DNA from: Gemmatimonadetes bacterium 13_1_40CM_69_22 | GTDB taxonomy: Bacteria > Gemmatimonadota > Gemmatimonadetes > Gemmatimonadales > GWC2-71-9 | Assembly (NCBI GenBank): GCA_001917665.1 | Contig: MNEL01000020.1 | Span: 1-64,000 of the forward strand | Direction of reading: 5' to 3' | Length of the DNA: 64,000 nucleotides | Shown here: positions 22,644 to 26,342 of the stretch, one piece after another | Layout: each line of letters starts with the position of its first letter | How positions within the stretch are numbered: the stretch's first letter is position 1 | Made by a program: the position numbers and the translations under genes | Notes under the pieces: generated by a model | Told to the model about the DNA's origin: nothing | Databases searched by the model: none | Seen by the model: only the letters and a program-made list of their open reading frames with translations

Positions 22644-22804
22644 AGGTCACCTCCGCGACACCGGCTCGTCGGAAGGGTCATGCCACAGGCGGAGGCCGTC
22701 GGATAACCTGCGCATCTGAGCCCACTTAGGGACGTTGGGCATGGGGCGTCGTGGCGCGCGGAGTTGTCACCCCCAGCGGTCACCGTGTAGCGGGGTCGGG
22801 TCCC

Positions 22805-23872
22805 TCAATCTCCCAGGCTGATCCCCAGGTCGCGCGCCGTCGCGATGGTATCGGAGTCGAGCGGGACGAGCTTCGGCATGGCGAGCGCCTCCGCAATGGG
22901 GATAGGGGCGATGGCGGGGGGTCGCAGCGCGACCATCGTCCCGAACTTCCCTTCTGCGATCACGCGTACGGCCGCCGCACCGAACCGCAGGCCCAGCAGG
23001 CGGTCGAACGTCGTGGGGCTGCCGCCACGCTGGAGGTGCCCCAGTACGATCGTGCGCGTCTCCTTGCCCGTCATTTCCTGGATCGAGTTGGCGACCTTGT
23101 CGCCGATTCCGCCGAGGCGCTCGTGCTCGGGATCGATCAGCGACACGGTGCCGCCCTTCGGTGCCGCTCCCTCCGCGACCACCACGATGCTGAAGTGCCG
23201 GCCCTCGGTTTCGCGCCGCTGGATTTTGTCGCACACCTTCCTGATATCGAAAGGGATCTCGGGGATCAGGATCACGTCGGCAGACCCGGAGATCCCGGAG
23301 TGCAGGGCGATCCACCCGGCGTGGCGCCCCATCACCTCCACCACCATGACGCGCTCGTGACTCTCGGCCGTGGAGTGGAGCTTGTCGATGGCGTCGGTGG
23401 CGGTCTGGACCGCGGTATCGAAGCCGAACGTGGAGACGGTGCCACCGACGTCGTTGTCGATCGTCTTCGGCACGCCGACCACCGGGATCCCTTTCTCGAA
23501 CAGCCGGTGCGCGATGCGCAGCGAGCCATCACCGCCGATTGCGATGAGGGCGTCGATCCCTTTGGTCCGGAAAGCGGCGATGAGCTCGTCGGTGCGGTCC
23601 CGCTCGACCCAACGGCCGTCGGGGAGCTGCTCGCGCCACCGGAACGGATCGCCGCGGTTGGTGGACCCGAGGATGGTGCCACCGAGGTGTGTGATGCCGC
23701 GGACCGCGTTGGCATCGAGCGTCACGACGCGGTCCTCGTCCAGCAGCCCGTCATAGCCGCGCCGGATACCGACGCACGCCCAGCCGCGGTGGACCGCAGC
23801 GAGCACGGCCCCGCGGATCACGGCGTTCAGCCCCGGGGCGTCGCCGCCGCCGGTGGAGATCGCGATTCTCAA
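22805..23872 (-). CDS. pfkA: 6-phosphofructokinase
   Basis: Phosphorylates fructose-6-phosphate (glycolysis). 355 residues with nucleotide loop ISTGGGDAPGLNAVI, GYDGL, IGGDGSLRIA and PKTIDND with the catalytic base Asp, then MVVEVMGRHAGWIAL and LGHLQRGGSPTTFDR. The residue matching E. coli Gly104 is Gly, which favours ATP as donor; that matching Gly124 is Lys (PKTIDND), otherwise common in pyrophosphate enzymes. Such Gly/Lys combinations are known in ATP-using actinobacterial enzymes. TTG start at 23872 overlaps the SelW-like stop as TTGA, so the two genes form an operon. Confidence 0.93.
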   Translation of the reverse strand: MRIAISTGGGDAPGLNAVIRGAVLAAVHRGWACVGIRRGYDGLLDEDRVVTLDANAVRGITHLGGTILGSTNRGDPFRWREQLPDGRWVERDRTDELIAAFRTKGIDALIAIGGDGSLRIAHRLFEKGIPVVGVPKTIDNDVGGTVSTFGFDTAVQTATDAIDKLHSTAESHERVMVVEVMGRHAGWIALHSGISGSADVILIPEIPFDIRKVCDKIQRRETEGRHFSIVVVAEGAAPKGGTVSLIDPEHERLGGIGDKVANSIQEMTGKETRTIVLGHLQRGGSPTTFDRLLGLRFGAAAVRVIAEGKFGTMVALRPPAIAPIPIAEALAMPKLVPLDSDTIATARDLGISLGD

Positions 23873-24108
23873 CGCGCCGGCGGCGCCGTCTGCTGAATCA
23901 GGCGCAGCACTTCCCCGGGCTCAGCGTGCCGCCCGAGGGCCTTTTTGGAGAACAGGCGACGCCCGTCGATCTCGACTTCGAACACACCGCCGGAGGACTG
24001 GATCAGCTTGACGTCCGCGTGCGGGTAGGCCTTGCGGATCTCGGCCGCCAGACCGGCGGCCCGAGGCTCGTAGTTTCAGACGACACAGTACTCGATGGTG
24101 ACGCGCAT
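23869..24108 (-). CDS. Rdx/SelW-family thioredoxin-like selenoprotein (in-frame TGA read as Sec)
   Basis: 79 residues if the TGA at 24076-24078 (codon 11) is selenocysteine. Before it: MRVTIEYCVV; after it: NYEPRAAGLAAEIRKAYPHA, then a beta strand VEIDGRRLFSKKALGRHAEPGEV and LRLIQQT. This is the Rdx family (SelW/SelT/SelH) layout, with a CxxU redox motif where most homologues have CxxC and the family's NYxPRA signature intact. The reading frame stays open and conserved in character on both sides of the TGA. A hairpin of bacterial SECIS type follows it. The stop overlaps pfkA (TTGA). ORF finders split or miss it. A pseudogene or sequencing error is the alternative. Confidence 0.8.
24040..24065 (-). 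promoter_or_regulatory. Candidate bacterial SECIS element
   Basis: On the minus strand, CTCGGGCCGCC (24065-24055) pairs with GGCGGCCGAG (24049-24040): 10 bp with one bulged G, closing the loop GGUCU (24054-24050). The loop begins 21 nt after the TGA and has G at its first positions, as in known bacterial SECIS elements; the E. coli fdhF element also shows GGUC at its tip. It overlaps coding sequence, as bacterial SECIS elements do. Confidence 0.7.
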
Positions 24109-24221
24109 ACGGGGTGTGGGAGAGCCGGCTCGGTTCCGTGTAAGGATAGTCGCGCTTGACACGCCACGCCACAGTCCCGAGTTTGCGCGGCATCCACCCC
24201 CGAGGATTCAGACCGACCGGC

Positions 24222-26342
24222 ATGAGCATCCTTCCCCGCCTCAAGGCCTCGCCCGGCGTGCTGGTGCGAACGCTCGTGTCGCTCGGGGCCGTCCTCGCCG
24301 TCGTCGCGGCGGTCGCCGCCTACGCCTCCGGACGGGCGGTCCTCGGTGCCGGTCTCGGGACCGAGTTCGTCATGCTAGTGGCGATCGGTGCGCTGTCGCG
24401 GCGCTACGGGGTGGCGCTCCCCGGCAATGGCTTTTCTTCTTACATCGTGGGCGTCACGGCGTTCGCTGTGCTCGACCGCGGGTGGGCGTGCGCGGCCCTT
24501 GTCGCCCCGACGGCCATGGTCGCGGGCGACCTGTTGTTGCGGCGGCTGCCGGCCCGCACGGCGCTGGGAAACGCCGCCCATCTCACGGCCGGCACGGCGG
24601 TCGTCGGCCTCATGTACGAGCGTCTCGGCGGCCTCCTGGGTGCCGACGCGCTCGACGCGACGAACCTCGCGCCCCTCGCCGCGCTGCTCGCGCTCCTACC
24701 CGTCGTCGTCAACGCCACGTTCTACCTCGAGCTCGCGCTCGGTCGCTCGCTGGCATGGGTGGACGCGTGGCTCACCGCGCGGTGGGAGACGATCGTGTAT
24801 GCCTGCTCCGCCGGGCTCGCGCTCGCCTGGCTGCGCCTCGCCCACGCCGGGCTTGGCCCGGTCGAGACGTTCGTAGCGGGCGCGGTCCTCGCCACGGCGA
24901 CCGCGACCAGCGTGTACGTCGTCCGGCTCGGGGTGCGCGCCGACGAACTCGCATTGATCCAAGGGCTCTCGCAGGTCATCGCGCGAGACATCTCGCTCGC
25001 GAAGAGCTTCGCGCGCATTCAGGAGCTCACGCGGCGCCTGGTGCCGTGGGAGCAGATGGGCTTCGCCCGCTACGACTCCCGCACCAACGAAATGGAGCTC
25101 GTCGCCGACACCGCGGCCGGCGGCCGGACGAGCTTTCGCTTCGACGCGAACGCCGGGCTGACCGGCGAGGCAGTCCGGCTACGCCGTCCCGTCGTGGCGC
25201 ACGCGCTGCGGCCTGACCAGGTCGTCCTCCCTGGCGAGGAGCGCCCCGGCGCGGAGGTGCTCGTCCCGCTCTATCACGCCGGCCAACTGGTCGGTCTGTG
25301 GAGCGTGCGCCACTCCGATCCCCTGATGTACCGCGAAACCGACGGCGAGGTGCTCGCGCTCCTCGCCCCCCAGCTCGCGCTCATGCTCGCGATCGAGACG
25401 TCGGTACAGCCGGTAGTCGGCGCCTCCGAGCGAACGACCACGTACATCGGGACCCTCACCGCGACGACGCAGGAGATCCATGCGTCGAGCCAGGAGGTAG
25501 CCGCGGCGGCCCAGCGCGCCAGCCACGGCGCGAAGCAGGCGGCGAGTCTCGTGAGCGCCGTGGCGCGCGAGTCGGATCAGCTCAAGCAGCACGCCGGCGA
25601 GGTCGCCGCGGCCGGCGACCAGACGCGCGACTCGGGCTCCGCGATGGAGAAGACCACCGACAAGGTCCGCCTCGCGACCGAGACCGCCGTCCGCCGCCTC
25701 ACGGACCTCGGGGTGACGACCGAGCACAGCGCGTCCGAAGTGCGGCGGCTGCGCGACGTCGCCGAGCAGGTGGAGAAATTCTCGGAGACGATCGGGTTCA
25801 TCGCGAACCAGACCAATCTGCTCGCTCTCAACGCTACGATCGAGGCGGCGCGTGCCGGCGTGCACGGCCGCGGTTTCGCCGTCGTGGCCGACGAGGTGCA
25901 TAAGCTCGCGGAAGCAAGCGGGCGCGAGGCCCGGGCCGTCGGCCGGTCGGCGCAGGACACGCGCGGAGCTCTCGACCGCGCCGCCCAGCTGCTCGAGGGG
26001 CTCCGCGAGGACCTGACCGAGGTCGTCCGGGGCTCGTCCGAGTGGGTGTCGGACCTGAGCCACATCGCCGAGGCAGCCTCCAGCACCGCCCGGGCGGGGA
26101 AGCGCGTGGCGGAACTCGCGCGCGGCATCGCGGCGCTGTCGGGCCGGATCAGCGCGGCGCTCGAACAGGCGAAGGCCGGCGCCCAGTCGTCGAGCACGGA
26201 GGCGGAGGCCGTGGCGGCCGCAGCGGCGGAGCAGCTCAAGGCCATTGAAGCCCTCACCCACGGCGCCACCGAGCTGGCGCAGCTCGCCGACAACCTTGCG
26301 AAAGCGGTGCGCTTCGTCCGGGGGGAGAACGGCCATCCGTAG
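24222..26342 (+). CDS. Methyl-accepting chemotaxis-type receptor with membrane and GAF domains
   Basis: 706 residues from the ATG at 24222. About residues 10-250 form seven or so membrane helices with little periplasmic sequence. A GAF-like domain (about 270-400: [15 protein letters not shown] ... [24 protein letters not shown]) follows, then a methyl-accepting signalling domain with the conserved hairpin tip [21 protein letters not shown] and [16 protein letters not shown]. It probably senses an intracellular or membrane signal and controls CheA, or acts as a non-chemotaxis signal transducer. No che genes are nearby. The 3' end overlaps the Kelch lipoprotein gene. Confidence 0.92.

Follow-up and report, generated by a model that had tools for sequence, protein, structure and literature searches.

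The gene rdx, on the minus strand of the window (the whole 64,000-nucleotide stretch analyzed) at 23869..24108, very probably encodes a 79-residue selenoprotein of the Rdx (SelW-like) family, in which an in-frame UGA is read as selenocysteine (Sec) in a SECIS-dependent manner. Based on comparative sequence evidence, we place the probability of this reading at approximately 0.96. The frame opens with ATG at 24108-24106, has TGA as codon 11 (24076..24078), and ends with a terminal TGA at 23871-23869; its minus-strand reading is MRVTIEYCVV-TGA-NYEPRAAGLAAEIRKAYPHADVKLIQSSGGVFEVEIDGRRLFSKKALGRHAEPGEVLRLIQQTAPPAR-stop, and the product has Sec at residue 11 (MRVTIEYCVVUNYEPRAAGL...). With Cys placed at the TGA, the protein matched Pfam PF10262 at 74.6 bits over profile positions 1-73 of 74. 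It also scored 101.8 bits against NCBIfam NF041051 (SelT/SelW/SelH; cut-off 88) and exceeded the cut-off for TIGR02174. NCBI family models for Rdx already exist, and their names accommodate selenoprotein forms. The redox motif near the N-terminus is C8-V-V-U11, in which C8 and position 11 were invariant among homologues, and Rdx-family proteins (for example, PDB 2fa8) are among the closest solved structures. A profile search of the draft genome identified this as its sole Rdx gene. A preliminary description of this DNA had reported the same frame, with the TGA exactly at the second Cys of the CxxC/CxxU motif, and had assigned it to the SelW/Rdx family. The sequence, the coordinates, and the position of the TGA were confirmed, and the PF10262 and NCBIfam matches bear out the assignment.

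SelW-like proteins with a CxxU motif are already established as selenoproteins of bacteria (PMC1088965, PMC1794560, PMC2398784). They form an abundant family known since 2005, and the present rdx belongs to this known kind. It has the size, the CxxU motif, the second-position Sec, and the bacterial SECIS of the described members (PF10262; TIGR02174; NF041051), but adds a host phylum, Gemmatimonadota, and a pairing with pfkA. It was noted in 2006 that, in organisms containing Sec, SelW-like proteins have very few if any Cys homologues (PMC1794560).

Each of the five genomes of the genus carried the in-frame TGA, as did 83 of 83 Rdx-bearing genomes among the 102 searched in the family and 80 of 80 named loci drawn from another collection (76 counted by script and four by eye). 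These counts answer, in favor of Sec, the alignment of homologues at codon 11 that had been proposed earlier as a check. The nearest named loci were from Gemmatimonadetes MAGs, with protein identities of up to 96%. Third codon positions accounted for 53% of the rdx differences 3' of the TGA, as in a translated frame. In a phylum-wide draw, Rdx was found in 193 of 395 genomes, and all matches listed carried the TGA, except for five of a divergent Cys type. These Cys-type proteins (L135-L139, from other Gemmatimonadota families; compare PDB 2fa8) belong to the Rdx family by sequence; however, they have CxxC and form a divergent subfamily. They do not look like revertants because two of the genomes concerned also list a TGA copy. 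Two irregular loci were also observed: a 99% complete genome (G054; L124 on G054:C1) has a shortened Rdx that has lost approximately 30 residues internally after the Sec motif, and in G019 a second Rdx-like match (L123 on G019:C55) contains two TGAs in frame.

A bacterial SECIS hairpin is predicted at 24040..24065 on the minus strand. Positions in it are given as p, the number of bases past the UGA (24076 minus the coordinate). Its apical loop GGUCU (24050..24054, p22-26) begins 21 nt after the UGA, and its upper stem pairs p16-21 with p27-32 (24055-24060 with 24044-24049). Below this, 24061 pairs with 24043, 24062 is bulged, and 24063-24065 pair with 24040-24042. The loop and its spacing had been given correctly in the preliminary description, as had the number of pairs (10 bp) and the single bulge; the bulged base was reassigned. 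The bulge has two isoenergetic registers, and since p15 and p33 covary, we place it at p14 (24062) rather than p15, with 24061 paired to 24043. The folding energy of the hairpin was -19.6 kcal/mol, with a z of -2.1 relative to dinucleotide shuffles. A single-fold z of this size in GC-rich coding DNA is weak evidence when taken alone; comparisons among relatives put the hairpin far beyond chance.

Codon usage and covariation were examined in 82 distinct sequences. Gly at the loop position (p22-24) was encoded by GGT in 51 of 51 cases, against 11% in gene bodies, and Ser at this position by AGT in 22 of 22, against 3%; the codon of the Thr preceding the loop was invariably ACC. Positions p15 and p33, which are the wobble bases of Arg and Ala codons, formed G-C in 48 sequences, A-U in 17, and C-G in 5. 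They paired in 88% of sequences against 63% in shuffles, a level reached by none of 2000 shuffles. Phylogenetically independent pairs on a PfkA tree were in agreement versus opposed by 3-4 to 0 for G/A with C/U, and by 3 to 0 for C with G; under this strict test, such small numbers do not reach significance (p 0.25 each). Folding energies of individual genes were only moderately beyond the synonymous-codon null (mean z -0.98; five control stretches, -0.08 to -0.43). Positions p22 and p25 (24054 and 24051) also covaried (G-C in 51 and A-U in 21 of 82; 0 of 2000 shuffles), tying the Leu codon (CTG/TTG) to the preceding Gly or Ser. A p22-25 pair leaves only two loop bases and, thus, fits no ordinary hairpin pair.

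The published limits for bacterial SECIS elements are a loop of 3-9 nt with G in its first two positions, an upper stem of 4-16 bp, a minimum free energy of at most -7.5, and a distance of 16-37 nt from the UGA (PMC13188914). The rdx hairpin lies within them, with a 5-nt loop, an upper stem of 6-7 bp, a spacing of 21 nt, and -19.6 kcal/mol. It has the same apical loop as the SECIS of Escherichia coli fdhF, GGUCU (checked in E. coli records), as well as stem G-C pairs and a location just 3' of the UGA. In contrast, the distance from the UGA to the loop is 21 nt in rdx and 18 nt in fdhF, the rdx hairpin bulges a purine (G, rarely A) at position 14, and the stem sequences are unrelated. The codon bias, the p15/p33 covariation, and the fdhF-identical loop substantiate the SECIS-like hairpin that had been proposed from this single sequence.

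The genome itself, a 2.36-Mb draft that is 71.5% complete and has the window on its contig C34, encodes a tRNA-Sec with a UCA anticodon (81 bits), selA (542 bits), and selD (402 bits). The latter has the canonical in-frame TGA in its GAG-U-ACKLG site and, thus, is itself a selenoprotein gene. A profile search of the draft did not find selB, and a search of the draft with the full SelB protein of a congener returned only other translational GTPases. Since the draft is 71.5% complete, this absence is uninformative and we read it as a gap; selB exceeded the cut-off in three of the four congeners (G001, G002, and G004), from which we infer its presence in this lineage. A search for selA, selB, selC, and selD had been suggested beforehand; it recovered selA, tRNA-Sec, and selD in the draft, and selB in congeners only. 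The earlier proposal that this lineage decodes UGA as Sec is upheld by the tRNA-Sec, selA, and selD, together with the conserved TGA and SECIS.

In selD (L130 on C50; L127-L134), the sequence GGCGCAGGUC(C/U)UGCG forms a conserved hairpin approximately 33 nt after the TGA; its loop is of the GGUC type, and it is likely a second SECIS with the same type of loop as rdx. Several family genomes (G068, G036, G044, G056, G066, G086, G095, G096, and others) have selD without an in-frame TGA, and rdx, where found in these genomes, keeps its TGA. SelD alternates between a Sec and a non-Sec form, which is not the case for Rdx.

The distribution of Rdx followed that of the Sec genes. Among the 83 Rdx genomes of the family, tRNA-Sec was found in 72, selA in 73, selB in 70, and selD in 79. 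Across the 102 family genomes, Rdx co-occurred with selA, selB, tRNA-Sec, and selD at Fisher p values of 3e-4 to 2e-5, which overstate independence because the genomes are related. Rdx was absent from 10 of the 11 family genomes without selA, selB, and tRNA-Sec. The exception, G050, keeps Rdx; this genome, which still has a selD with the TGA, is 69% complete. In the genus g34, nine of 10 genomes lack Rdx, selA, selB, and tRNA-Sec, and the remaining one, G082, has all four. This pattern indicates that the loss of the Sec machinery went with the loss of Rdx, not with its reversion to Cys.

Three other explanations of the TGA were considered. A single base separates TGA from a Cys codon, and it may be a nonsense mutation in a pseudogene or a miscalled TGC/TGT. 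However, the same TGA recurs in the 83 independently assembled family genomes and the 80 named loci, the protein 3' of it is conserved with differences concentrated at third positions, and the SECIS is conserved. The comparative data refute this explanation, to which we attach next to no probability. Alternatively, UGA may end translation, with the gene expressed only as fragments and the hairpin a by-product of GC-rich Ala and Arg codons. The Ala-rich peptide and its GC-rich codons do dictate much of the stem, and the single-fold z is only -2.1. Nevertheless, these codons do not account for the exclusive use of GGT and AGT at the loop, the wobble-wobble covariation at 15-33, the identity of the loop with that of fdhF, or the co-loss with the Sec machinery. 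A chance hairpin was rejected on these four grounds and is very improbable.

Unusual tRNAs able to read UGA are known, and UGA may be decoded as Cys or Trp through a reassigned code or a Cys-charged SelC-like tRNA. However, UGA also terminates translation here: TGA ends 11 of 31 long GC3-selected ORFs in the window, and relatives differ in the stop codon of rdx itself, with TGA in some and TAG or TAA in others. The tRNA-Sec is canonical, the genome encodes SelA and a SelD that is itself a selenoprotein, and the SECIS is conserved. We rejected code reassignment on this evidence and regard it as highly unlikely, although slightly less so than a chance hairpin.

Under the selenoprotein reading, and by analogy with established bacterial Sec biology, SelD would supply the selenophosphate with which SelA converts Ser-tRNASec to Sec-tRNASec. 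SelB, seen in congeners and not in the draft, would bind the apical loop and bring Sec-tRNASec to the UGA, while the terminal UGA of rdx would terminate normally. Rdx would then act as a small thioredoxin-fold thiol/selenol oxidoreductase, with a selenenylsulfide forming between Cys8 and Sec11.

Directly downstream on the minus strand is pfkA (22805..23872), encoding a 355-residue protein of the phosphofructokinase family (PF00365, 361 bits). Its TTG start at 23872 overlaps the rdx stop as TTGA, as described previously, and the five genomes of the genus all show this overlap (-3). A co-directional pfkA was located downstream of rdx in 63 of the 80 named loci and in 69 of 85 relatives' loci, in the latter nearly always at -9 to +52 nt from the rdx stop. 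A consensus search of 22700-24350 detected no sigma-70-like promoter or terminator. The two genes are probably co-transcribed and, in this genus, also translationally coupled; of the operon proposed earlier, the adjacent and overlapping pfkA was observed, and co-transcription is deduced from the gene arrangement. In one relative (L095, G023:C172), the stop of rdx and the N-terminal 48 residues of PfkA are missing, leaving the two genes in one continuous frame; this probably reflects a local deletion or an error in assembly rather than a true fusion enzyme. On the plus strand at 24222-26342, a divergent gene with GAF and methyl-accepting chemotaxis signaling domains has an intergenic region in common with rdx-pfkA.

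A literature search for SelW and phosphofructokinase together returned nothing. Gemmatimonadota are not mentioned in the main text of the selenoproteome papers searched, the supplements of which may contain an earlier tabulation, and a paper naming both Gemmatimonad- and selenocysteine has no description of this rdx. Therefore, while the family is known, the phylum-wide fixation of Sec in Rdx and the conserved pairing of rdx with pfkA seem less known and apparently undescribed. We speculate, with little confidence, that Gemmatimonadota Rdx is functionally coupled to phosphofructokinase, either because Sec decoding sets pfkA translation or because the redox chemistry of Rdx protects or regulates PfkA; if so, glycolytic flux would answer to the supply of selenium or oxidants. 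The conserved pair is a testable hint to the function of SelW-like proteins. Gemmatimonadota, which are common soil bacteria, join the lineages with a widespread and apparently obligate Sec form of Rdx, and they offer a clean natural case in which the loss of the Sec machinery led to the loss of the protein, with no reversion to Cys.
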